DNA of 64,000 nt, taken from NCBI GenBank assembly GCA_037893245.1, contig JBAIAA010000311.1:682001-746000 (forward strand), given 5' to 3'. Under the pieces are notes generated by a model. It searched no databases, was not told the DNA's origin, and worked only from the letters and a program-made list of their open reading frames with translations. Made by a program: the position numbers and the translations under genes. Origin of the DNA: Crossaster papposus. Taxonomy: Eukaryota; Echinodermata; Asteroidea; Velatida; Solasteridae. Within the stretch, counting starts at the first letter, position 1; every line of letters begins with the position of its first letter. Of the stretch, positions 1 through 43,111 are shown one piece after another.

Positions 1-393
1 TATAATGTACGTACCATAACATTAGGGCACTTTCTGTAGGTCTGAACTTGAGCCGATGAACATGACGCTTTCCCCAAATTACATGAAGACGCGATTAACG
101 CGTCCCTAGCGCCTAGGAGACGATAATCTGGCCGCTAGGTGGCGCTATTACAAGTTGACTTGTTCGGATGAACACAAAATGCTCCATGATACAACACACT
201 GCACGTTGCCATTAGGACGAACCGAGAACATATTCCAAATCCGTTGAAATTTTGACAATAATTATAAATCGCCAAGGAGATGCCATTTTTGACCTAATAA
301 CAAATCGAGGACGTCCTCGGTATGTTGAAGGTCCTCGGTCTGTGAGTGTGTAATCACACGAAAGTGCTCGATTTGCAGGCTTTGACAAGAGCA
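1..393. repeat. Left copy of a 393-bp direct repeat
   Basis: The first 393 bases recur at 12065-12457 with no difference that I could find by eye. Identity stops abruptly after GAGCA at 393. The left edge cannot be judged because the window starts inside or exactly at the repeat. No protein-coding character is seen. It could be the two ends of a large element or two copies of one dispersed repeat; the right-hand flanks differ, which favours a dispersed repeat. Confidence 0.8.
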
Positions 394-1290
394 CGCATAG
401 ACGTCGTGTAATGCACCTTGGATGACTGTGATATTTTCTCAGTCCGTACAGAATATTTATACAGTTTGAGCATCCTATCGAAGTATTCACTTCAAAAGGA
501 TTTAAATACCCCAACAATCTAGTATTGTACAGTATTGTTAACCCACTGTTGACCACTGCCTATTGTCTGAATCCTGAAAAAAAAATCGCGTGGGTTGGAT
601 CAGTAGTCGACTCGATAGACCACGATAAACCACGCCGAAATGTACCCATTTTCACGGAAATATATATTTCCTTGTAGTAACACGCGAAGGGAGAGAACGA
701 AGGCCCCAAGCTATAGCATATTTCGTAGGTCATGAATTCACAACTTTAGTTAATGATTTAAATGAACGATTGACCATACTGCATCTAAAGTAAGAATAGT
801 CAAGTATAACTTTTTTTTTGTACCGACGGTCAACCCCTTCTGATTTTATTACCATTTTAGAGGTTCCAAACATGCATTAATGACGATTTTCAAGCATAAG
901 AGTATGATGTACCAGTACAATTTGTGCCTACATGGAAATCACTGGAAGGCACTATATTGAAATGTACAAAAAAGCCAAATTATTAAGGGTCTACCGTCGA
1001 GGTCTACCGTCGGGATTACCGAGCACGGTCGACCACGATTCAATAGCGCCCTCTCGGGCTACGACGTGTGACATAACCATTACTTCAATGTGATTGGTTA
1101 AAACTTTTAGAAACGTTGGCGGCGCTATGGACATGCGTGATCATTGAATGAAATGCCCCGTTCTGGTTCTTATTGTTATTATAACTAGATCTAGAGAAAA
1201 CATGCAAATTGGTTTGCAAAACAGGCGACAGGTTTCCCCCCCCCCCCCCACCCCAAATCCTCTAAAAAATTCCAAAAATTGGCTCGCTAG
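394..1290. other. Non-coding stretch before the Rep-like element
   Basis: I see no gene here. The DNA is AT-rich with two short phrases repeated near 995-1035 (GTCTACCGTCG-like) and a C homopolymer at about 1237-1249. No terminal repeats or coding exon could be recognised. Confidence 0.5.
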
Positions 1291-1300
1291 ATATATAAAG
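1291..1300 (+). promoter_or_regulatory. Candidate TATA box of the Rep-like gene
   Basis: ATATATAAAG lies about 30 bp upstream of 1321, where the terminal inverted repeat begins, and about 90 bp upstream of the ATG at 1381. The spacing would place a transcription start almost exactly at the repeat. It lies just outside the inverted repeat, so either the element uses a flanking promoter or the true element edge is further left. Confidence 0.4.
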
Positions 1301-1380
1301 CCCATACATTCGGGTCACTTGTGTCTACACGCTTAGAGAATTGCAGTACGGTAACTGAAACTGTGCTCTTTGAAACCATC

Positions 1381-2997
1381 ATGGAGAACCTTCAATTACT
1401 TGGAACTCGCCAGGTACGTCAAGTATATTTAATAACATATAGCCAATGTGACGAAAGGCTTGTGCCAAATCGTGACGCCTTCGCACACATTGTAGTGGAA
1501 GCTTTCATCAGTGTGACACACGATCCAATGTCAGTCGTTTGCTGGGCTTGCTGTAAAGAACCACACCAGCAAGGGGGTTTTCATTATCACATGGTGGTAA
1601 AACTTCGACTTCCAAGACGCTGGCTACATGTACGACAATGTTTATCTACTGTGCATGGCATTAATGTAAACTTTTCGTCCAATCACACTAATTACTACAG
1701 TGCATGGCAGTATGTCGTCAAAGAAGACATTCTTTATATTCAGTCCCCCAACCATCCAGATTTGACCGGACCCCCTCAAACAGCAAGCGCTTCAGCTGCA
1801 CGCAGTCACCAAGACGCCGTAGAGAGACCGACGAAGAAAAGAAAAACCCGTTTAACTCCCTTTGATGTAAGCAAAATAGTGGAGTCAAATAACATTCGTA
1901 CACGATTGGAGTTGCTAGCCTTTGCCCGTGACCAAGAACAGCTTGGAAAAACCGATCTCACACAGTTCATCGTCAACAGGGGCGACAAAGTTGTGCAACA
2001 GGTACTTAAGGTAGACATGCACATATTGAAATATAGTTTGACTCGTAAACATCAGTGTCCATTCAATTCAATTCAAATTTATTTTTACAACTTCCGAGAC
2101 AAAAACAGGTAATAAAAACAATTAGAATCCTGTATATAAACTGTTATTAACATAATATATAATACTGATGAAAGACAAATCGAAAATAGTGTTCAAATAA
2201 ATAAGTAAGAGGACTTTTCAAAAATCTTCCTTGGTTATACACCCCCCCCCCCCCCCCCCCAGTTAAAAAGTATTACTATAGTTTTAATAGTATATATTCT
2301 ATTTGTTTCCACCTTTTCTTAGACTGCCTGGGAACTACATGGGGCAACAGATTCACTTGAACGGTACAGAATGACCAGACTTCAAATCTTGGAGAGAGCT
2401 TTTTCTGACGATGACTGCATTTGTCAGGGTGACTGGCTACGATGCGCCAATGAGATACTTCAGAGAAATGGGTTGAACAAAGTAGGGTTTTCTCAATGTG
2501 TGCAAACTCTTTTGGATAAAGGAAGGGGAAAATATAGAAATGTAATGCTAGTAGGGCCCGCTAATTGTGGAAAAACATTTTTATTGAATCCACTTAACCA
2601 AATATATAAAACCTTCACTAATCCGGCTACCACTACATTTGCCTGGGTCGGTGCAGAGCAAGCGGAATTAATTTTTCTAAATGACTTTCGTTGGTCTCCC
2701 AAGATTTTGCCATGGCAAGATCTTCTGTTATTACTAGAAGGACAACTTGTACACTTACCAGCTCCCAAATCACACTTTGCTCAAGATCTCGTCTTGGATA
2801 AGGACACCCCGATATTTAGCACATGTAAACGCCAACTCATCTTCATTCAGGGAGGTGTAGTTGATGAGCGTGAAACTGAGATGATGGCAGTTCGTTGGAA
2901 AGTTTTCCTAATGCACTACCAGATCCCCGAGGATAAACAGCAACGTGTACCTGCATGTACACGTTGCTTCGCCTCACTAATCTTAAATAAGGACTAA
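1381..2997 (+). CDS. HUH endonuclease-SF3 helicase (Rep-like) protein, two exons
   Basis: Predicted exons are 1381-2001 and 2323-2997, separated by a 321-bp phase-0 intron (CAG|GTACTT ... TTCTTAG). Both frames are open and join cleanly to a 431-residue product. Residues 68-70 are His-Tyr-His, the metal-binding HUH motif. Tyr111 followed by Lys114 fits the YxxK catalytic motif of rolling-circle initiators. A basic KKRK-like stretch follows at about 160 and may be a nuclear signal. The second exon holds a P-loop GPANCGKT (285-292), a Walker B segment with Glu322 and Asp328, and a motif-C-like DTPIFST starting at 368, as in superfamily-3 helicases. In known families, HUH plus SF3 is the replication initiator of parvoviruses and CRESS-DNA viruses; eukaryotic Helitrons instead carry a Pif1-type helicase. 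The in-frame GTG at 1321 lies inside the terminal repeat, so the ATG at 1381 is preferred. No frameshift is seen, so the gene may be intact. Confidence 0.7.
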
Positions 2998-3116
2998 TTA
3001 ATAACAATTTGTAACAAGTAATGTAATCCCAGAGGATGAACATTACTACTAAAAACACAATCTTAGAACTTGTAAATGAAAGAAAAACACCTAAGTGGGC
3101 CCCACGACTAAGTTGT

Positions 3117-3430
3117 TTAAAGGTAGGATACACCATTGGTCATTGCTTGAATTATCATGAATGAGTAGATTTGGGGGGTTGTATTTAGAGTACATATCGT
3201 TTAACTGGGCTGTCCGAAGTTTTAAAATCATGGATGCCGAGAAAAGCACGAAAAACAGCTGGTTTTTTTTCAACCGGCACCGAGCAGTTATTCTTATGTT
3301 ATCTTTGTCGATCGCGAATTTTTCATTATAAAATTCTATTTTTCGGAAGAATTACAGGCAATCTAGCGCCATTATTTTGCTGGATGCCCAGAATCAACAT
3401 TTAATTTACATTTACACGTTGCTTTTACCT
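3117..3430. mobile_element. MITE family A, copy 1 (right end missing)
   Basis: It begins TTAAAGGTAGGATACACCAT, the terminal sequence shared with the copies at 3481, 9601 and 42002. It then follows the family interior (TTTGGGGGGTTGTATTT, a CGTTTAACTG box, GAGCAGTTATTCTTATGTTAT). Similarity fades near 3430 without the inverted right terminus, so this copy is truncated. It lies about 120 bp downstream of the Rep-like stop codon. Confidence 0.75.
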
Positions 3431-3480
3431 CCTAAGTTTTAAATAAGAAAATTTATATCATTGTGTCATTACTGAAACAT

Positions 3481-3871
3481 TTAAAGGTAGTATACACCAT
3501 TGGTAATTGCTTGAATTATCATTAATGGTTAGATTTGGGGGGTTGTATTTCATAGTAAATATCGTTTAACTGACCTGTCCGAAGTTTTACAATCATATAT
3601 ACTGAGAAAAGCACAAAAACAGCGTTTGTTTTTAACTGGCGTCGAGCAGTTATTTCTTATGTTATTTTGGGGGTTTTCACGATCACCGTCCGGCGATCGC
3701 AAATTTTAATTTATAAAAATTTCAAGTTTTCGAAATAATTACAGGATATCCAGCGGAATTATTTGGCTGGATGCCTAGAATCACTATTTACTTTCAAATG
3801 AGTAAGATATTTCCTAATAATTCGCTAGTAAATATTTTTCGATATCTGCAAATGGTGTATCCTACCTTTAA
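3481..3871. mobile_element. MITE family A, copy 2 (full length)
   Basis: The left end is TTAAAGGTAGTATACACCAT and the right end is ATGGTGTATCCTACCTTTAA, giving inverted termini of about 20 bp over 391 bp. The centre has a small palindrome CGTCCGGCG. It sits inside the 1321-4531 element, so it inserted later. No coding capacity. Confidence 0.8.
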
Positions 3872-3896
3872 TGAATGGCAATTTTCCTGTTGGAAC

Positions 3897-3945
3897 AACA
3901 ACGTGTACAAACCATATGTACTCGTTGCTTTGCCTCATGAAGGTT
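3897..3945 (+). pseudogene. Second copy of the Rep-like gene's 3' end
   Basis: Bases 3897-3945 resemble 2938-2988, the C-terminal codons of the helicase exon: both spell CAACGTGTAC, then a T/ACTCGTTGC-type block, then GCCTCA. In one frame this reads to CTRCFAS followed by a stop. It lies just right of the MITE at 3481-3871. I read it as a remnant of a local duplication of the gene's end, later separated by the MITE insertions; the match is short and imperfect. Confidence 0.4.
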
Positions 3946-4531
3946 AAATGATATTTTTTTAAAATGTTCAATAATTCATCGCTTTCCATGGTGGTTTCAA
4001 ATATGGGTCATTCAACCAGGTTGGACTACGATTTGTGACGGTATCAAGTTGTTACATTTGTAAATGTGCCATCTATTATCCTTTCTATTGAAGCAGCAGA
4101 GATTGATTTAATTTGAATTTAAAGCACAACCTTACTTAAGGATAATAGATGGTACATTTACAGACGCAACAACTTGACGTCGTCACAAATCGTAGTGCAA
4201 CCTGGTGGAATGACCAATATACCGTACCGGAAAGAAAATGACCTGCTCTGTGAGAAGTTGACATGTGCCACCATTAACATAGTAAGCGTAATTTGTCTGA
4301 ACAGTTTAACGCGCTTGCTCCTTGCCCAAAGGCCCCCCCCCCCCACACCCAAACAAAAATAAACAATCGATAAATAAATCACTAAATAAATGAAAGGGCC
4401 TATGAGATACCAGAAATGTCCACCAAAATATAAACAAGTCATTAAAAGGTTGATTGTAAGACTCATTATTGGTTGCGACTTGTCAACTTTTCACAGAGCA
4501 GGTAAAAAAAATTCTCTAAGCGTGTAGACAC

Positions 4532-6217
4532 TTAAAACAATATGTGACCTGGCCCAACAAAATGGGTATAAAATCGCAACAATCAAAAAATGTATATATT
4601 TGTATATCTCAATAGAGCAGGAAAAGAGTTTTCAAATGGTAACACTTGAGGATAACGATTTCAGTTAATCTTGGAGAGCTAAGACCATCAATTCAAATCA
4701 AATCCGATAACTTAAAAAAATGATGCGACTTTCTACTCATTTTGTGGTGCCATGTCACATGTTAAAGCCCCTATAACAATTTTTTAATTACCCGATTACA
4801 AACTGACATGTTTATAATGGTATCAAACCTTTGTGGAAGTTTCCCTGCCTGAAATGCTCACATTGTAGAGAAAATGGCAAAACATTTACCGAAAAATTTT
4901 AGTCCTAAAAAATGATGGCTACATTTTGTCTCTTCTGATTCACTTGAAAAACCATTTCACTTTTTCATCTTTTTTTTTTTTTAAATGTGAGCACTTACGG
5001 AGATGAAACTTTCACAAGGTTAGTTTCGGATGTGTATATAAACCATAGAGCTATATTAAATTACTAGAGCACTGGCTGGATGTACAAAGTGATGCGAGCT
5101 GGGCGCATCCATGTTTGTGCACAAACCTATGGAAACCTCAAACTTTTGTACGGCTATTTGCATATATGCGTTTGTATTCTATACAATGCGTTACCAAAAC
5201 CAAAACGCATGATCAGCAAATGAGCGCAAACATCGCAAATGCGTGTGCGTATTTGCGCGCTGCAGATGATTTGCCGTGGCTTTTTTTAACTGACATGACG
5301 CGCGTAAAGTTGTTTGCGTCTGTTCTACTTGCACGCGCGTTGCATTTAGAGTACACTTTCAAAATTAAATCCATCTATTTTTATTATGTTCTACAACACG
5401 CACATGAATTAAAAATGTCTGCTTACAGAATGGATTCAAAGGACCAATAATGTATACCCGCTGTAAATGAATTAATACAATAATGAAATAATAATGAAAT
5501 AATAAAATAATAATGAAATAATTAAAAGTCTTTTTCAAATAACTAATTCCTGGTGTATTAATGTGTCCCTCGTAGCAAATGTAGTAAAAGGCACTTTCTA
5601 TTTCTAAACCCCCCCCCCCCCCCCCCCCTAATACAATGTTGAATGACCGTTGAATGACCGGGGTGCACAGGGGTTTGTCCAGAAAGTCCACTCTCTCAAT
5701 TCTCAACATTGTATTGGGGGGGGGTGGGGGGGGGGGGGGGGGGGGGGGGGAATGATAAACTTGTAAAATTTCTACATTGTATTGGTGGCGAGGGGGCAAA
5801 TGACAAAATTCAGAAATTTCTACATTGTATTGGTGGCAAGGGGGAGTGGTGGCGGTATTTATAAATAGAAAGTGTGCATATTAAAACCTATTCCACAAGC
5901 GTTTCACAAGACGCATTTACAAGGAATGTTTAATTGGATACATGCACCCACTCATGCATACATGTGCAGACCATCACATGGAGGACCTATTGAGCAGTCT
6001 ATCCAATAGGGGACATTTTTCTGGAGGTACATGATCATATCAATGTGAGGACGCCATACACATAATTCTCTATTTTGCTTATTATCAAGGTGCGTTTGCC
6101 ATTTCAGCCCAAATACATTCACAAATGCTTTCTAACACGAGTGAATTATTTCCTCGGGTGCGGACAATTGCTGCGTGTGTACACGTCCACCGGCGTGGAG
6201 TGGTTAAAGATAGCCAC
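4532..6217. other. Non-coding stretch with G/C homopolymers
   Basis: No gene is recognised. Open frames here are short and of low complexity. Notable content: a C-run at about 5610-5628 and a G-run at about 5716-5750 flank an inverted TAATACAATGTTGA / TCAACATTGTATT pair, and the phrase CTACATTGTATTGGTGGC occurs twice, at 5773 and 5820. A TGCG-rich patch at 5160-5340 has no visible repeat structure. Confidence 0.5.
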
Positions 6218-8766
6218 TTATCGTTGTTCTCGAATAAGTGTGTTGCGGCAAAAGTCTTTGATGTTCTTCCATGATCGACTCTGCAGTGCTATGGTACATG
6301 ATCTTTCAATATCACGCTTACCAGGAATTTTCTTCAGAACAAAGAATCTGTGCAGACTTTCCATGACGTCTCTTCTCTCCTCTTCCGTCCAACTACGACG
6401 TGTCGCCGTTATCCGCCGATGCCTCACCGTGACTGATGCCTTGTTTGCTTGAACCTGTACTGTAATACAACACATACATTACAGCTTTAGACACACGAAT
6501 TCATCAGTAGTTTTAACACATACAATGACCGCCTGACAGTGTGACACACTGATAAAACATTTCAACTTACTGCTGCCACAGGTGTCGCTGACATCACCGA
6601 TGTTACCATCACCGCGGGTGTCGTTGACATCAGCGATGTTACCATCACTGCGGGTGTCGTTGACATCACCGATGTTACCATCACTGCCATCGTCACTGCC
6701 ATCGCTGCTCTCACTCGTGAAGCCTTCTGAAGTGATTGGGAAAAAACCACATAGAAAACACTATTGTCTAAATGCATATGTATCCAGGTCAACTTACAAA
6801 CAGTCATCGGCATGTGTACCTCATGCACAGATCCATTTAAATTGTACTTACCTCCCAATACATCCAATTCGTTCAAGGACCTGCCCTCCTGGGAAGGCAA
6901 GTTGCCCCTCTCTAAGCTGAGGAACAGTCTTGACAATTGTGTTACCCTCTGCACAGTGTCTGGTAGCTGGTAGTATTCACGGTGTATTCGCAAGTCGTGA
7001 CCCATGAAGTTTGCTAATGTCTCCAGCTGATGCTCCTTCAATGATAATATTTGTGATGCAGTTGCTACATGCTTACGAAGCTTAGTAGACCGGATGCTTG
7101 TAGGATTATCTAGGCCCACAATGTCAGCATAGGATCGGAGCTGGTCACTTCCTCGTATGTGGCCCAAGCCTCCATAACAGCGCGCAAACAAGTAAGGGTT
7201 TCCTGCCGCTACTCCAGCTTCAATTCTCTTGGCTACAAGTGCACCCAACCATGTCACTGCATCAGTACACAGCAGCACTGGTACAGTCCGGCCCTTCTTA
7301 CCCACTATTTCAACAACTGTGAACATTTTGCATAAATGCCGTTCCAAATCACTCAAGACACAGCCCCCATCAATTTGTGCTGTGGTCCGCTTGTGAAAAT
7401 CGTGTAATTGCATCTTTGACACCTCCCCTTGTCGCCTGCGATTGAACATTATGAGATGGCACAGCGTCACTTCATTCAAACACTTCCATGCAAGTTTGAT
7501 TGCATCACCAGACGCATCTTCCAGAATTTGCACTTGCTGGTTGGCAGCTTCTTTAAGGAAGGACGACATCTTAACAACATCTGCATTGGTTGGGAGAACT
7601 GTATTCTTGTTCCGCTTTTCTTGGTACAATGTTCGGTGTGCATGGACAGATACATGGTCTCGCCACTTCAAATTGCATAACTCCAAAAACTGTTCTGCGT
7701 CATCAGCTTTCTGCTTGAGGCCATGCTCTAGAGCATTGCCTTTCACCACCAGGGCACACTTTTTTATGGAATGTCCTATCTTTAGTGCCAATGATGGAAC
7801 ACTATACAATTGTTTGCGTTTGTCAAAGCCAGCAATGTCATGGACAGCGTTAATTATGGTAATGACATGCCGGGGATGCACAAACAGCTCGAGCGATGCA
7901 TTTGGTTGCACAGTATTCTTCCGGAGTTGTAAGATGAGGCGACCTAATTCACGCAATTTGTTTCGGATATATCCGTGTTGATCTACATCATGGCCCATTT
8001 TTAGGAATTCACGTTTGGCGAACTCAATAACCAACGAGTCGGTCTTGGCTATCAAGGCAACCTGATCTTTCTTCATCGGGCAGAGAATCTTGTTCAGCTC
8101 AAAGGACACACCCGGAGGAGGCGGTTTCAATAAATCACTCTTGTGAGCAACTCGGCCACGTACACGAACACCTTTATCATGGGCAGAGAGCGCTGGATTT
8201 AGTAAGCAACGATGTCTCCAAAGATCAGTTCGCACATAATAGCCAAAGCAATACATGCACGGTCCATATGCATCTGCATTTACGGGATGATTCGGTCTAT
8301 ATGCTACTATAAGCACACCGTGACCTTGGCGAATTACTTGGCAATTGTGTCTGTGATTACCAGCATTGCGGATTTTTAACAGAAATTTATTGCGGATCAA
8401 ATTGTTGTTTTCGGACGATATCTGCACTATTTCGGTTTCTTCCTTATGCAAAGACGCGAGATGACGGGGTAATTTGGCCTGTGGCTCATCACAGTAGAAG
8501 CAAAAGTTTTTTTTGTCCCATTTTCTTTGACCGCTTTCATTACTAGTCTGCATAACTGTGATGTTACACTCATCTGTCAAGTCTCTGATGGGCGACGGGA
8601 TGCGAGATCGTACACTCAACGGTTCATTTGCAGTATTCAATGTGTCATCCAAACGGACGTGAGAAACGCAATCAGAATCACTGGCATCCGTATGAACTGG
8701 AGCATCGTTACAACTGGACGGACAGAGGGAAGTGCTGCTGCAAGCACTGTGTCCAAGGTCTGCCAT
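6218..8766 (-). CDS. Tyrosine recombinase-like protein with zinc-finger N-terminus and SANT-like C-terminus
   Basis: Three minus-strand exons join in phase: 8766-6852, 6726-6571 and 6459-6218, about 770 residues. Exon 1 has two Cys/His clusters (CFYCDEP...H...H and CMYCFGYY...HRC), then a long domain with FNRRRQGEVSKMQL as a candidate catalytic-Arg segment and LRKHVAT plus MGHDLRIHREYY as candidate His/Tyr box. These resemble the tyrosine-recombinase fold of Crypton-type enzymes. Exon 2 is Ser/Asp/Gly-rich with a 12-residue repeat (SDGNIADVNDTR type). Exon 3 has a Trp-containing SANT/Myb-like segment (RSWTEEERRDVMESL ... RSWKNIKDF). I recall multi-copy animal proteins with this order, but their function is not known to me. 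The frame continues to 8814 without an ATG; the first ATG is at 8766. A single frame reading through to 6562 is open but ends in non-homologous residues, so splicing is preferred. Confidence 0.7.
6571..6720 (-). repeat. 36-bp coding minisatellite in exon 2 of the recombinase-like gene
   Basis: About three copies of a 36-bp unit (GGTGTCGTTGACATC...GATGTTACCATCAC on the plus strand) fill most of exon 2. In the spliced frame they encode an acidic repeat of twelve residues. Because the unit is a multiple of three, copy-number change keeps the frame. Confidence 0.7.
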
Positions 8767-9600
8767 AATAGGATTCAAACTGTAAAGGCCATGGGAACTG
8801 CTATTGGTGAACAAACTCTCATATGTAAACCCTCTCTGAAGAACTTCAACACAGTCACAAATGATGATATACTAAGGGGCCACCTGCAAAGAGAAATGCA
8901 ACCATACTTATTGTAATCAGGTTCAGTAAGTACATGTTGGACTCGTTAAACATTTCAAGACTGATTGCTATTCATCCTTATTGCTTAGGAAGCTGCTTTA
9001 TTTAGTATTTAAGCCTAAGTTCCCCCCCAAAATAACAAATTTGGTTTTTGGTCAGGGGTTGGCTTAAAGTGTTGCGGAGACGCATTTAAAAACAATATTT
9101 GTGGTTCTTTGGTTACCCCCAAAAAATTTTTATGAGCTATATAACACATGCCTTGCTACTATGAAATGCGCGAATAAGCCAATTTGTAATAATTAATAGA
9201 CAATGGGGGACATATTACATGATATATCACGTTTATTAAAAGCGTTTACAGCTTTCAAATATTAAACAAACTTTTGTTTTTGTCTGTTCCCAGCAATAGA
9301 TGTAAAAGTCAATAAAATTAAATGGATACTGCCCTGGTTCAATTAGCCTTAGGTGGTCTATTTTGCAACGCGATTAGCGATTCCACATCCTCCCGGCGGA
9401 CGGACATGTAGTATTCGAGTGACCCCGTGAAGGGGGGGGGGGGGGGGGGGGGGGGAGGGGGCATTAAATAAACTTGCATTTACAAAAAAATTAAATTGGG
9501 CATTAACTGTTCAATTTATTTAGAATTAATAAATAACTACATTTGCATAAATCCTCGATCTTCCTATTTCTGCGCACATAAGGGTTTGCAACCGAGTAGC
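8767..9600. other. Upstream region of the recombinase-like gene
   Basis: This lies 5' of the minus-strand gene. No upstream exon or core promoter could be assigned with confidence. It contains a long G-run at about 9431-9456 followed by AT-rich DNA. Confidence 0.4.
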
Positions 9601-9987
9601 TTAAAGGTAGTATACACCATTTGCAGAAATCGAAAATATTTACTACTTAATTATTAAGAAATACCTTACTCAATTGAAAGTAAATAATGATTTTCGGCAT
9701 TCCGCAAAAGGATTGCGCTGGATATCCTGTAATTATTCCAAAAAAATGAATTTTATAAAGAAAAATTCGCTCTCGCCGGACGGCGAGAGCGAAAAAACAA
9801 AGATAACATAAGAATAACTGCTCGACCCCGGTTGAAAACAAACGCTGTTTTTCGTGCTTTTCTCGGCATCCATGATTGTAAAACTTCGGAAAAGTCAGTT
9901 AAACGATATTTACTATGAAATACAACCCCCCAAATCTACCCATTCATGATAATTCAAGCAATTACCAATGGTGTATACTACCTTTAA
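9601..9987. mobile_element. MITE family A, copy 3 (full length, inverted)
   Basis: It starts TTAAAGGTAGTATACACCAT and ends ATGGTGTATACTACCTTTAA, 387 bp. Relative to the copy at 3481 it is in reverse orientation, since the TTTGCAGAAATCGAAAATAT end is on the left. The centre holds a perfect short hairpin, CTCTCGCCGGACGGCGAGAG, at about 9771-9790. No coding capacity. Confidence 0.85.
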
Positions 9988-12064
9988 AACTAAAAGAGCA
10001 ACCACTCTTTTCATCAACAAAACTTGTATTGTTGGCTTACGATCTTCCACTATGCGGATTAACAAAGACAAATTTTCTTTATTTGTAGCGACAAGCGGGG
10101 AATTCCAAAGCGTGCAGTTTTGGCGTTCAGAAACAAATCCTGCCTAAATCTGCGCAGTGGGGCGCTTCATGGAAAATCTACGGTGTCCGGGTCATGCAAC
10201 TTAAGAACAACATTTTTTACTCCTTGATTTTGGAAAATATATTAGCTTGAACATTTTTAACCTAATTATTTACTTCTTTTTTTCAATGCCAGTACACTTT
10301 TCGTAATTTCAAGATTAATTCGCCATAATGGTTTAATTCTCAATAGATAATTGTTAATTTTTTTTTACAAAAAGGCATATATTTAAAATTCACATCCAAT
10401 TTATACATTTTTACCTATTTAATGTAGACCCCAGTTTGTATTGTTATCATTGAAGAAATGTATTAATAAAGTTGGAAATGTACATTCATATTAAAATAAT
10501 TAATTCAATTTTTGTTACTTTAAATATAGTAGGATTAGCTCTACACGAGTGTTCACGAATCATACTCTCAGTCAAACTAAACTAAAGACTGCCGTGCTCT
10601 GAATTCATACTAAATTGGCTTTTTATGTTCTTTAGGCAATACAAATTAGTTTTACAATATTACAAATCGTCACCTCAGACGTTCCAAGCCTCTCGTTCTA
10701 ATATTAATAATCTTAATGATAATGGTTTATACAAGGTACACCCAGGACCAAGTTGTGCGTTGTATTGTTCATTTCAAGTAGCAATTGGTTCGCTGAGTTT
10801 TTAGAAGGGTGCATCAATAAACTCGGTTGTTGATTAGGCCTGAATTAAATAAAAATACAAATAAACCTAATAATATTTAAATGCCTTAATAAATTGACCC
10901 CTTCTTAGATTTGGTAACCTGAATTATCTTGATGAATGTATGTCATATATTGATCATCCCAATCAACAGAGAACATTGTCAAGATGTCAGATTTTAATAG
11001 GTATGACAGAAGAAAATTCCAAAATAATATAAGAAACATGTCTTCTTTGTTGCACCGCAAGTCTTAAACCCCCTTAACAAAATTAATGAATTATATAGGA
11101 CACGGTAGCTATAATACTGACGACAGAGGGCGAATAACAGAGTTTACCGTGCGGTCATCTTTTCGACTTCTGCAGGCCCGAAAGCCTCTACCAACAATTG
11201 TACCTAGTAAATTAGCTGTAAAAATCAGATTTTTTTCAATTTTTGCCCGACTTACCGTTAAAGCATTCACTATAATTTTTCGGTGGTTGTGAAAGTTCAT
11301 GCATCAAAGAATACGATCCTAGTGACAGTACATCATTTTTAAGATGCGCGCGTTGCCAAATTGAAATTAAAGACGAGTGCGCAGAAATAGGACCGCGCAG
11401 ATTTAGGGGGTCTGACGATACTAAAAACTCATTCAAAATGTACATTATGTACATTTATGTAGAAAAGTTAAACTAAATGCATAAAATAAACAATATGAAA
11501 AGTGATTATTAATATCATTGTTTTAAAATATTAATTAATGAAAAAGGCAAAATTTGTTTTTAATTTGTTGTCTTTTGCTTGGGTGACAACTTGACGAGGG
11601 GCCCACCTGGTCATGGGAAATTCGGAAAATTTGATAGTGGACGACTTGACGTAGTGGACGACTTCATTTGTGAGGGGACAACTTTACATGTACTTGTAAT
11701 CGATTTGATTCGGGATACGAGTTGATGACCCAAATTATAACCTTTCACTTTTTTATGTCATGCCCAATTTCAGTTGAGAAAAATAAATGCACATAAATAT
11801 GTGTCTATCTATGATTTTTTAGTATAACCGAATATTTCTTAATTGGGTGGATTTATTATGTTAATGTTTTTGGGTTTGGTTGGGCATGTGGAACCATGGA
11901 GGTATGGTGGAACATACTGTAATGGTTGTGAGAAAGCTGACGATCGATTGATGTGAAAAGAATTCCACATGTGAAATTAATTATTTCAACAATACCCGAT
12001 TACTATTTCCTTCAATATCCTATGTAAATTGTACACGAGAACAGTTTTAAACATATTTGTTAAT
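9988..12064. other. AT-rich non-coding stretch
   Basis: No gene, RNA gene or terminal-repeat element was recognised across these two kilobases. A short phrase GACGACTTGACGTAGTGGACGA near 11640 partly repeats GACAACTTGACGAGG at 11585. Open frames are short and lack conserved motifs. Confidence 0.5.
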
Positions 12065-12457
12065 TATAATGTACGTACCATAACATTAGGGCACTTTCTG
12101 TAGGTCTGAACTTGAGCCGATGAACATGACGCTTTCCCCAAATTACATGAAGACGCGATTAACGCGTCCCTAGCGCCTAGGAGACGATAATCTGGCCGCT
12201 AGGTGGCGCTATTACAAGTTGACTTGTTCGGATGAACACAAAATGCTCCATGATACAACACACTGCACGTTGCCATTAGGACGAACCGAGAACATATTCC
12301 AAATCCGTTGAAATTTTGACAATAATTATAAATCGCCAAGGAGATGCCATTTTTGACCTAATAACAAATCGAGGACGTCCTCGGTATGTTGAAGGTCCTC
12401 GGTCTGTGAGTGTGTAATCACACGAAAGTGCTCGATTTGCAGGCTTTGACAAGAGCA
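12065..12457. repeat. Right copy of the 393-bp direct repeat
   Basis: It matches 1-393 at a constant offset of 12064 with no mismatch noticed. The left flank ends ...TTTGTTAAT and the right side passes directly into a GTAC/CATGTA-rich low-complexity tract (12458-12530). The high identity implies a recent copy or ongoing homogenisation. Confidence 0.8.
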
Positions 12458-12549
12458 TGTACGTTCGTACATACACATCGTTCGTATACAATGTACGTAC
12501 ATATATCATGTACATGTATGTACAGTGTACGTGCCGTGATTTTATGAAT

Positions 12550-27100: not shown

Positions 27101-30100
27101 CAGATACATTCTTGCATTCGGACTCCTCTTGGTTGAGTTTGGAATATACAGTTCGGTAGGTTTCATCATCAGTTTTGGCATGCAGGGGCTTTAGCTTTGT
27201 GATCAGACTGAAATGAGTTTCCTTCAGCTCAGTACCAAAATATGAAACATTTCTGCTTTAGACCTAGTGTAAGGTTCATGACCATTACACCTGCAAAATT
27301 GCCAATCTTGATAGGTTTCAATTTTGGTTAAAACAATTTTATTAAAAGAGTGCAAAGAAAAAAAGTACAAATACCTTTTGATTGGCATAATTACTTATCC
27401 AGGATGTGGCTGTGCAAATTCCATCAAAATGAAATTCAAAAGCATGATTACCAATGCATAACATTATTCAAATTTACTCGACCCCTGGATTTGATTTCAT
27501 TTATTTATGTGCCAAATTTTTATTTTTTTTACGTTGAGTTCAACTTCTTACCAGTGGGTCACACTCACGAAGATGTGGATCAACTATTTAGCCGAATTGC
27601 AGAGAAACTACGCCATAATGATGTCTACACTTTAGAAGGTAAGATTATACATTTCGGAGTCCACTGTAACTTGTGCAGGAGAAATCTTATCCATGTAGTT
27701 GTATTAATTCTTAATTCTGTATTTTCCCTTATACTTACAGAACTTCACGAAGTGGTTGAGAATTCCTACACACCCCGAGTCCTTGTGAGACAACTCTTTG
27801 GATCAGATCTATGGGACATCAAGTCTTGGTTGCTGCCTCATCTTAAGCCCATAGGAAACCACTCCAAGCCTCATCATTTTCTGTTCAAAAAGGTGAATGG
27901 AGCTGCCAGGATGTACTATCGCATGTGGTGTTGCGATCCTTGGAGACCGAACAATGTTGAGGGTGGGTACATATTGCTATAATTAACCCACAATTTCAAA
28001 CAGTACAATGTGATGTTTTGTAATGAGCTTTGTTGCTGGTAATGATGTTACTGTGAGTATATGATCGTTTTGTTTTTATTTGCATTTTATTTTTTTGAAT
28101 GAGAAGTGGGGCAAGTTTGATTTTAATTCAGCCATTAATCTGACATTGCGTGCTGTACAGGGATCGCATCTCAAACTGCTTTGTGATTCTTGATGAGTTT
28201 AATTAAACCTCAGTGTCACAAGTCTTGGCTATGAATGTGGTTTTTGGATGCTTGTTGAAATCACTTGCTTCTTTATTGAAGTAAGTAGATGCAAGAATGA
28301 AGTTTTCCTTTTGGTTAAGTGTTTTTAACCTTACCTTATGGTCATTTTTGTGTAAGGTATACGTATACTTGCAGTTTGTATGATAGCAATTAGTGAAGAT
28401 CGAGCTTGAAAAAGATATTTCCTGCAAATTCAGTAATTATTTCCAATGTTCCTTTGTGGTTTAAATCAGGTCCTGATGCCGAAATTGACATACCCAATGA
28501 GGAGCAGTGTGAAGGACTTAGTCTGTTCAAGGTTTGAGCTTACTTGCTTACTTCACTATTTTTGCAACGTTTTACAAATGCAGTAAACATTGTAACACTG
28601 GGTGTGTTATTGCCAAGTAACGCCGTGAAGTCATTATATGATATCCTATGAGTTGTAGTTTGAGATGTACTTGTTTTCTGAAGTTTCATGTTTACTAAAC
28701 CATTGCTATGACGTCACACTATTGTTAAAAGTGTGGATTCGGATCTACGAATCTCTTACACTGGTCACAAAGTGTTGATTTGGAACGACAAATTTGCTTT
28801 CCGAAAATTACCAATGAATCTTCACTGTCAGATTCTCCACCGTCGCTGCAAAATCTACTTTTCCTCAGAAATAAATCGTCGTCTGAACTATCCATTTTGA
28901 CGTAAGGAGCCTATACATGTACACACAAAATGACTTGGTTGTACGGGTGTGGCGATACGCATGCTAAACATGCCAGGGAAAAATGTTGCAACCTGACACC
29001 ACTTCCGCGCTTGTGTACAAAGTCTATGGAAAGTCAATTCAAGTATTTCCTAGCAAAATTGGAAACATTTCTCAGTCCCAGATTCATGTTTATCATCATT
29101 TTTGCAACAAATGACCTTCTTTGAGATGATATATGAAGAAAAAGTGGCGTCAGGTTGCAACATCCTTTCCAATACTTCCGTCGACGCAATGGTTTAGGTC
29201 GAAGAAATAGAACACACTCGCAAGTGTGGATTCTTAATTTACGAATTCACTCGGCGCTTCACGCCTCGTGAATTCTTAAATTAAGAATCCACACTTTCTT
29301 GTGTATTCTCCTTAACTTTTTGCTGTACTTTTAAGTATGGTAAATAAGTTCTGCAGAATTTACTGTATGTATGGTACTTTTATTTTCAACAGAGTATTCC
29401 TGAAGTCACTACTATACCAACTAGAGTCATCCCAAGCCTGGAAAAAATGGACCCTAACCTGGAAAAAGATCTGAAGGCATTTGGGAGAAGAATGCCACAG
29501 GATGCTCATGAGTGGTGGAACGGGTTCTTCACACAAATTGACAAATTCAAAAAGGTAAATTGTTGTTTTCATTTGTGACTTTTTTGTGGTAGCAGGGTAG
29601 ACAAGACGTGACTTAAGTCTGAATTGCTTTAAAGGGAAAATACAACATTTGCAAACATCAACAAATAAAACTACCAAATTATTTTGAAAAGTCTTTTTGG
29701 AGTGTTAGTGAATGACAGTCTAAAGTATCCTGTAAAATCATGGCACCTGATATACTGTCATTTTCAAGAAAAGTGATATTTGTGTATCAATTTCAAACGC
29801 ATATTTACGGGTGTATTATACATATGTATATGTGTGTGCATGTGCAGAGCATGTGCAAACATTTGGTGCAAAAGTTTAAATTCCGACTTGATCAATCTGC
29901 CATCAGCACCCCCCCCCCCCCCCCCCCCCCTCGCATGTACGCACATGTATTCATCGATGCATATGCAACATCATCACTATGCATAAAGCGCCTTGTGTTG
30001 TGGGTACCCGTACCCAGAGCTGATTGCAACATCATCACTATGCATAAAGCGCCTCGAGTTGTGGGTACCTGTACCCAGAGCCGGTGTGTGTCTGAGTATT

Positions 30101-42000: not shown

Positions 42001-43111
42001 CTTAAAGGTAGAATACACCATTTGCAGATATCAAAAAATAGTACTACCGAATTATTAAGAATTATCTTACTTATTTGAAAGTAAATAATGATTGTAGGCA
42101 TCTAGTCAGGTCAGTTGAACGATATTTACTATAAAATATAACCCCCAAATCCACCCATTCCTGATAATTCAAGCAATTACCAATGGGGTATCGTACCTTT
42201 AGGGTTTTTGTTCACGAATGCTGGAAAACAAGTTGAGGCAGCACTTTGTAAATTTTTTGTTTGTTTTTAGGTTTGTGGTTGTTTGTGGTGATGGAGAGTA
42301 CATTATCTACACGGCAATGGCGCTCCGTAACAAGAGCTTTGGATCAGCGCTGGAGTTCATCTGGTCACATGATGCATCCGAGTAAGTTAATAGGCTGGCT
42401 GTCCGGTTAGTCCCGCCTCCTGGGGCCAATTTTCATGAAGCTGCTTAAGCAGTTCGCGCTGGGATTATTTTATTATCACCGAGCTGAGGGGCGGGATTAT
42501 TTTTAACGAAACTCGATCCGAAGCGGGTTCAGGCCGATAGTGCCAGGAAGCACACCCATGTATTTCCAGCCTTGCTCGCTGCTGAAGAACATTTCCGGCC
42601 TAGCTCGCTGCCGACAGACATTTCCGAACATGAACTTGGCGTGTTTATGCGTCATCCGTTTTGAATTTGGGGAAAACTTTGCGTTTATGTACGTCATCCG
42701 GCGCCAACTAGTTAAGCACAAAGTATTAAATATTCTAAAATTCATTTGTATTAAAAAAAAAAATGTATGTGTTTGATTTTGGTTATTCTCTGGTCACCAT
42801 AGGTATGCCACCCGCGAGAGTAACACACTGGTAAAGATATTCAAGAACTTCAAGGAGAAAAAATCTTTCAAACCAGAATTTGGCGCAGAAGGTAAAATGT
42901 CTTTTTACTTCACTTGATATTAGCAGAACAAATTAATACCCTTGAATACATTTTGAAACAGTGCCTACAAAAGTTATTATGCAAATTTATTCAAATTTAT
43001 GTAGGAATTTACGGCGGAAACCTGCTGGGTGTTCGTTCAAGCAGCGGTCTGGCATTCTACGACTGGGACACCGCGGAACTCGTCCGAAGAATCGAGATCA
43101 TCCCAAGGCAG
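36087..43111 (+). CDS. COPB2: Coatomer subunit beta-prime, exons 1-14 (5' part of gene)
   Basis: COPB2 is a COPI coat subunit that binds dilysine cargo signals and acts in Golgi-to-ER transport. Exons: 36087-36089 (ATG only), 37056-37076, 37499-37615, 37939-38025, 38163-38289, 38768-38915, 39464-39610, 40360-40459, 40720-40862, 40992-41091, 41667-41766, 42271-42381, 42803-42891, 43005-43111. They encode the first 467 codons: the N-terminal WD40 propeller ([62 protein letters not shown]) and the start of the second propeller ([20 protein letters not shown]). Exon 6 is 148 nt instead of the expected 149: after AATACT the frame slips at TTTGCC, and the family sequence resumes one frame over. The donor at 38916 would then be out of phase. 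Exon 1 is assigned from the ATG|GTGAGG context and the family start MPLRLDIK; it is the least certain exon. Confidence 0.9.
37731..37888. repeat. Inverted repeat with CCCTAA-rich loop in COPB2 intron 3
   Basis: GGGCCCACTCACAACTTTCG at 37731 pairs with CAAGAATTGTGAGTGGGCCC near 37870-37888, and ATTTACCCTA pairs with TAGGGTAAAT. The loop carries CTGACCCTAACCCTAACCCT, a telomere-like word; CCCTA(A/G)CC words recur at 38380-38470 in intron 5. Non-coding. Confidence 0.7.
39770..40029. mobile_element. MITE family B, copy 3 (reverse orientation)
   Basis: It starts TTAACCAGTTGACGTCAGAT and ends near GGCGCAAACTGATTAA, with family words GGATGACGAATAAGATAAAC and GCAAGGCCGGAGATAT in the complementary orientation. 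It lies in COPB2 intron 7. Confidence 0.65.
40500..40694. repeat. Two 90-bp copies in COPB2 intron 8, possibly SINE-related
   Basis: TTTACGTGGAGC...GTCCGTCCCAAGCCAATAA occurs at about 40501-40589 and 40607-40695. Each copy contains GGTTGGGTGCAGAGGCG and GTTCGAGTCC, which resemble A-box and B-box promoter words of a tRNA. The copies differ by several substitutions. I cannot fold them into a convincing tRNA. Confidence 0.55.
42002..42201. mobile_element. MITE family A, copy 4 (internally deleted)
   Basis: It starts TTAAAGGTAGAATACACCAT and ends CCAATGGGGTATCGTACCTTT, about 200 bp. The central half of the 390-bp family sequence is missing. It lies in COPB2 intron 11. Confidence 0.75.
42443..42716. 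mobile_element. MITE family B, copy 4 (most complete)
   Basis: It begins CTTAAGCAGTTCGCGCTGG and ends CCGGCGCCAACTAGTTAAG, inverted termini of about 19 bp with mismatches. The inner phrase CTTGCTCGCTGC is duplicated (about 42572 and 42604). It lies in COPB2 intron 12. Confidence 0.75.

Follow-up and report, generated by a model that had tools for sequence, protein, structure and literature searches.

A virus-like Rep module shares its junction sites with a Crypton-like recombinase module in the genome of the sea star Crossaster papposus

The genome of the sea star Crossaster papposus (1.02 Gb in 1841 contigs) holds two kinds of sequence block, hereafter modules A and B, which are joined at fixed bases; module A encodes a replication initiator (Rep) of the rolling-circle type and module B a putative tyrosine recombinase resembling that of Cryptons. 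Both lie in the window considered here, a stretch of 64,000 nucleotides (C311:682001-746000). We suggest, with a probability of about 0.6, that module A is a virus-like element lacking a capsid, which replicates as a rolling circle and enters the genome through Crypton recombination. A sequence-only reading of the same DNA had centred on the Rep gene and a 22-bp inverted repeat around it, and overlooked the adjoining tyrosine-recombinase module with its identical junctions.

Coordinates of all features are collected in Table 1. The modules meet at the core CAYGCA, and wherever the junction words were found the A|A, A|B and B|A joins fall at the same base: A and B behave as separate blocks. Positions 1-392 of the window are identical to 12065-12456 (a 392-bp comparison that includes one base of the next block), and C311:675889-682000 matches window 5953-12064 at 100% identity; a full B thus precedes A on this contig, whose array reads B-A-B. 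Copies of A at 98-100% identity occur on eight contigs, and the array ends were read on all of them except C1402; right ends are readable on six of these seven, since the array on C241 reaches the end of its contig. On C19, the stretch at the right end of B (L050) lacks the end sequence expected there, and this contig was used for the left end of B only. Arrays start with the start of B on 7/7 contigs and stop with the end of B on 6/6, the outermost module being B, cut at the same base, in every array read at both ends; five of these six have the B-A-B arrangement. On C792, nine A and six B are found among the matches listed, in the order B-A-B-AAA-B-A-B-AAA-B-A-B, and one of these B copies carries a 3.2-kb insertion near its end. 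At locus L015, a 3.2-kb insertion with ends TAGACTTG..CAAGTCTA and an apparent 9-bp target duplication (TCGATTTGC) separates the end of B from the A that follows.

Of 7996 candidates scored against the recombinase of module B, 473 are relatives at E ≤ 0.001, and the close relatives P0167, P0170 and P0171 are annotated with PF00589. At least 63 matches were found in the host genome (60 of 1220 candidates scored), of which at least 30 span almost the whole ORF at 99-100% identity, one of them with a stop. Several B copies lie on contigs without A among the matches listed (for example C979, C589, C476, C257 and C539). The solo copy on C979 is flanked by one 16-bp tandem repeat which, judged by eye and in this one case, keeps its phase across the insertion; the unbroken repeat on the two sides reveals the empty site, and the insertion is precise. 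The left core of B is CAYGCA or CATATA and the right flank begins with CA in five of six arrays and on C979 (CATGCATA / CATACACA). Cryptons, as described by Kojima and Jurka (2011, PMC3212892), are recombinase elements that lack terminal inverted repeats (TIRs), end in direct repeats of 4-6 bp and are proposed to pass through a circular intermediate; the term 'Rep protein' is absent from the main text of that paper. Module B appears Crypton-like and fits this description: it has a putative recombinase gene, no TIRs, short and variable direct repeats at its ends (a weak form of the feature, since the repeat is often only 2-4 bases), and relatives in sea stars, sea cucumbers, molluscs, a nemertean and fish (those named are in Acanthaster, Asterias, Patella, Apostichopus, Crassostrea, Lineus and fish). 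It differs from Cryptons in being arrayed with, and sharing junction sites with, a rolling-circle Rep module.

The Rep gene of module A runs from an ATG at 1381 to a stop codon at 2995-2997. HYH, YxxK, P-loop, Walker B and motif-C-like segments had been read from the sequence, and all were found across the two exons (FHYH, YVVK, GPANCGKT, LIFLNDF, PIFSTCK), with key residues invariant or nearly so in alignments of 22 and 21 rows. The gene is apparently spliced, with its intron at a conserved place. The two exons proposed earlier stand, and F4, an independent Rep family on contig C146, has its splice sites at the same place (AAAG|GTAACA ... TATAG|GACGCC), but the donor is better moved: an intron at 2011-2322 is preferred over 2002-2322 because the lengthened exon 1 aligns without gaps to single-ORF (open reading frame) relatives (alignment judged by eye), several of the closest relatives terminate in apparently the same intron, and F4 shares the positions. 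Models of the exons, predicted separately, reach mean confidence (pLDDT) values of 88.8 and 93.3 and, together with the motifs, bear out the earlier view of a nuclease-helicase initiator of the parvovirus or CRESS (circular Rep-encoding single-stranded DNA virus) type. The predicted folds are those of a geminivirus-type (CRESS-type) HUH nuclease and a superfamily 3 (SF3) helicase of the parvovirus/papillomavirus (E1) type. This combination, seen here on separate exon models, agrees with that of RepE1 cressviruses, and Rep is probably of their type. An assignment to Parvoviridae was set aside; the Parvo_NS1 profile matches Rep with E 0.0015 and 18.1 bits, under the cut-off of 20.

Rep has hundreds of relatives, and for 26 of the 120 listed the longest contig measures 3.6-4.2 kb, like small circular genomes. 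No confirmed relative came from pattern-based scans of viral contigs (IMG/VR) or from a scan of genome contigs; comparisons with PHROGs and Rfam gave nothing informative, and the PDB searched by sequence gave weak matches or none. Rep is the one gene recognised in module A. No capsid-like ORF was found there among ORFs of at least 80 aa searched against Pfam: the six besides Rep that overlap 392-5952 have no Pfam match above cut-off, a comparison that spliced or divergent genes may escape. Between the window and six divergent copies, taken per exon (11 comparisons; exon 2 of L027, split by an insertion, excluded), synonymous divergence (dS) is 0.030-0.060 and the ratio of nonsynonymous to synonymous divergence (dN/dS) 0.07-0.24, on the basis of 2 to 8 changes per class and exon; the introns of the same copies are 80-92% identical to that of the window. 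The near-identical copies L019 and L023, also compared, have too few changes to be informative. Frame breaks are present in some Rep copies, and the diverged loci L024, L026 and L027, which carry frame breaks or insertions, were retained in the tables. In the copies tested, these ratios indicate that Rep is under purifying selection.

Sequence comparison further indicates that the modules reassort. Diverged modules A (A′) on C827, C717, C209 and C1063 match A in blocks at 90-95%, with the last ~500 bp on C717 and C1063 at 80-81%, and on C447 at 88-94%. On all five contigs A′ adjoins a module B′ that is 71-73% identical to the window B where aligned, and on C827, C209, C1063 and C447 the two were seen to join at the usual place. 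The B′ recombinase is near that of F4 (97% at L040; 94-97%, in pieces, at L026) and not near that of the window. F4 itself is a tandem array of 12.64-kb units, each of which has a recombinase that shares 72% identity with that of the window, a Rep with amino-acid identities of 73% (exon 2) and 59% (exon 1) to the window's, and junctions CACGCATACATG at the start of B and CACGCA at the start of the next A. A-type Rep modules, about 94% alike, are thus found with two recombinase modules that are 72-73% alike, and one type of recombinase module (about 95% alike, main block) with two Rep modules that are 71% alike.

We infer the following course of events. The tyrosine recombinase of B would recombine short CAYGCA-type core sites at the ends of both kinds of module; Rep would amplify excised circles of A, or of A and B together, by rolling-circle replication; and the recombinase would insert these circles at a core beside a B already in place or, less often, at a core elsewhere in the genome. 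Insertion time after time could then build up arrays such as B-A-B and A-A-A, and would let a Rep module pass from one recombinase lineage to another. A wider proposal, tentative and somewhat short of even odds, would have a eukaryotic integrative rolling-circle replicon whose separately evolving Rep and Crypton modules reassort at a shared core like gene cassettes, whose Rep copy number is controlled by an antisense copy of the leader, and some of whose Rep lineages have switched to a piggyBac-type transposase.

Several observations count against integration of A by Crypton recombination. The recombinase ORF matches the Pfam profile Phage_integrase with E 9e-4 and 19.5 bits, under the cut-off of 27.1, and its catalytic residues were identified by eye; the small numbers of changes behind the dN/dS values belong here as well. 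One array, on C362, has CG instead of CA as right-flank core, the B′/A′ join on C717 is off the usual place with the first ~88 bp of A′ unaligned, and an A′ copy on C48 has no B on its left, the sequence there matching neither A nor B. A number of the tandem copies may have arisen by plain segmental duplication: the pattern B-A-B-AAA recurs on C792. Lastly, the Rep families on C863 and C80 form tandem units of 11.66 kb and 12.08 kb with a piggyBac-type transposase ORF (DDE_Tnp_1_7, E 2.9e-81 and 6.5e-84), and the stretches read there gave no match with ten recombinase queries at E 1e-5, which argues that Rep is not tied to Cryptons only.

That repeated pattern on C792, typical of segmental duplication, would also suit an origin of A and B as a single composite of ~12 kb, a Crypton that gained a cressvirus Rep once, with arrays made by unequal crossing-over and segmental duplication and no exchange of cassettes. 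The B-A-B order in five of the six arrays and the about equal divergence of A and B from their F4 counterparts (71% and 72-73%) agree with such a history. We nevertheless regard it as unlikely, given the solo B on C979 and the further B copies, among the matches listed, on contigs without A, the constant base at which one A meets the next, the join of flank and A′ on C48 and, above all, the pairing of A′ with an F4-type recombinase module. Still less probable, in our view, is that an endogenous RepE1 cressvirus happened to insert in or close to Cryptons and moved with them thereafter, its Rep being a viral relic: junctions that are exact and common to B instead of ragged, the purifying selection on Rep in the copies tested, the lack of a capsid-like ORF among those searched and of a relative in the IMG/VR scans all argue otherwise, despite the relatives with contigs of small-genome size and the endogenous RepE1 cressvirus copies reported from sea anemones (PMC11071296).

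The 22-bp inverted repeat on which the sequence-only reading was built is real: the pair is exact, its left arm begins 60 bp 5′ of the ATG and its right arm lies 1.5 kb 3′ of the stop, and the arm has two matches at ≤3 mismatches in the window and none in any of 100 shuffles. Its status as the end of a Rep-driven transposon did not survive the search of the host genome. A 101-bp left-arm query, including 21 bp outside the arm (40 scored of 48 candidates), and the mapping of 20 genome stretches around matches against the window did reveal many copies with precise boundaries, as had been supposed, but these lie at 392 and 5952 and not at the arms. At least 15 matches, the window's own among them, have 100% identity across the whole 101-bp query, and in the stretches read the identity extends kilobases further in either direction; among the matches listed no copy stops at the arms, and the arms start just after a TATA box. 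A TIR transposon ending at the 22-bp repeats was mostly refuted on these grounds and is very improbable, even with arms that are exact and sharp-edged and have analogues around Rep in families F4 and F2.

These analogues are exact inverted pairs at the equivalent place, of 25 bp in F4 and 20 bp in F2 (with four right copies), unrelated in sequence to the window's; none of 300 simulated controls per family (window, F4, F2) reaches the observed arm length, and F3 has no arm pair of 10 bases or more. The left arm follows a TATA-like box by 27 bp in the window, about 31 in F4 and about 37 in F2, which places it close to where transcription would be expected to begin. The window's inverted repeat extends beyond 22 bp: collinear inner pieces, namely GTACGGTA and one of 30 bp (80%) with the start codon region, lie at 3972-4240, where insertion of two repeat elements has split them apart, and the inverted start-codon region (ACCACCATGGA) is also present on the right side in both the window and F4. 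In the stretches read the arms are exact wherever found, save for one mismatch in the right arm of L026; L025 has the left arm only, and some of the stretches end before the second arm is reached. Such exactness across copies at 5-8% divergence is weak evidence on its own. As the repeats are exact, unrelated in sequence, flank Rep in two of three other families and begin near the probable transcription start, they are probably functional. In F2, L043 1987-6476 consists of ~690-bp subrepeats, and in at least four of them the Rep leader recurs as the same 20-nt reverse complement.

Antisense control of copy number is known from plasmids, and by analogy the right arm could act as an antisense counterpart to the leader of the Rep mRNA: a small or antisense RNA made from it would hold down the expression of Rep. 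An exact reverse complement of the leader, 20-25 nt long, stands downstream of Rep in three of four families, each time with an unrelated sequence longer than in any simulated control and with the left copy just after a TATA-like box. The transcription start is deduced from that box alone, however, F3 lacks such an arm, the right arms show no significant hairpin fold of the kind expected of a microRNA-like precursor (z -1.1, +1.6 and +1.3), and the arms could instead be a cis replication element. Both roles are possible from the sequences; the antisense one we consider doubtful.

RepE1 cressviruses (Cress4414, Cress4479 and others), according to PMC11071296, have a Rep similar to papillomavirus E1, measure a few kb and are endogenous in sea anemones. 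Module A resembles them in its E1-like Rep, few-kb size and endogenous copies, and differs in the lack of a recognised capsid ORF, its place in recombinase-module arrays and an intron at a conserved place. Helitrons and Replitrons are eukaryotic mobile elements with an HUH nuclease, the Helitron helicase being of the Pif1 type; the SF3 fold and motifs of Rep led us to reject a Helitron, in agreement with the sequence-only reading. The yeast 2-micron plasmid, a circular eukaryotic replicon with inverted repeats and a tyrosine recombinase (FLP), shares these last two features with the present system, but is not known to have an HUH-SF3 Rep or to occur in integrated arrays. Bacteria combine a rolling-circle Rep with a recombinase or integrase in integrative plasmids; the pairing of initiator and site-specific recombinase is the same, and the eukaryotic host, the separate exchangeable modules, the parvo/E1-type SF3 helicase and the intron set the present case apart. 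Integrative Rep plasmids are mentioned in PMC6668415. We found no description of a partnership between Rep and a Crypton or other recombinase in a eukaryote in searches of the open-licence PMC literature. If our reading is correct, a virus-like replication gene and a recombinase would occur in differing combinations, like exchangeable cassettes of one mobile system, offering a route for the interconversion of CRESS-type viruses and transposons in animals. Cryptons, whose amplification is to our knowledge not understood, may have in Rep a replication engine, and the virus or plasmid origin of such Reps would become testable in a living animal lineage.

Table 1. Features of modules A and B and of their surroundings (window coordinates unless a locus is named).
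Feature	Position	Strand	Basis or remark
3′ end of upstream module B, identical to 12065-12455	1..391	.	
Module A (Rep module), 5561 bp; starts CACGCATAGACG, ends ..GGATACATGCACCCACT	392..5952	+	same-base junctions in other copies
TATA box (TATAAA), 27 bp before left arm	1294..1299	+	read by eye
Left arm of 22-bp inverted repeat, near probable Rep transcription start, internal to module A	1321..1342	+	
Rep exon 1, predicted HUH nuclease (YLITYS, FHYH, YVVK)	1381..2010	+	motifs, alignments, predicted structure; 3′ limit shifted from 2001 to 2010
Rep intron (AAG|GTAGAC ... TTCTTAG)	2011..2322	+	sequence; same position in F4 (C146)
Rep exon 2, predicted SF3 helicase (Walker A GPANCGKT, Walker B LIFLNDF, PIFSTCK)	2323..2997	+	motifs, alignments, predicted structure
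Two ~390-bp MITE-like (miniature inverted-repeat transposable element) copies, first truncated, in Rep 3′ region	3117..3871	.	
Inner right-arm part, inverted 80% copy of 1369-1398 (Rep start codon region)	3972..4001	-	
Hairpin-type repeat (83-bp arms) between right-arm pieces	4001..4220	.	
Second inverted-repeat element (26-bp arms) between right-arm pieces	4241..4503	.	
Right arm of 22-bp inverted repeat, exact	4510..4531	-	
Module B (Crypton-like), 6504 bp; starts CATGCATACATGTGCAGACC, ends ..GGCTTTGACAAGAG	5953..12456	.	
Small ORF, possible separate last recombinase exon	6218..6475	-	suggested by where C-terminal matches of relatives lie in F4
Putative tyrosine recombinase ORF, 750 aa	6562..8814	-	
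Host flank after array (CATGTACGTTCG...)	12457..12516	.	
piggyBac-type transposase ORF	L041 5025-6533	+	Rep family stretch on C863
piggyBac-type transposase ORF	L043 7769-9283	-	Rep family stretch on C80

The MITE-like family, of ~390 bp with 21-bp inverted ends (TTAAAGGTAGGATACACCATT), has further copies at 9601-9988 and 42002-42201 besides the two in the Rep 3′ region. The latter lie between three stretches (2939-2968, 3410-3425 and 3893-3931) that are diverged copies of the C-terminal end of the Rep coding sequence, the first of which contains the hairpin CAACGTGTAC..GTACACGTTG.

Farther along the window, a 5.45-kb unit is repeated about four times at 99.8% identity over 43502-64000, as a segmental duplication or an assembly artefact. 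We weighed it as a possible third module and discarded the idea, since its edges are different and it holds an apparent exon of what we take to be the coatomer beta-prime gene. An ORF with a DUF7869 match (E 7e-27) at 27350-27982 is a possible transposon-related fragment.
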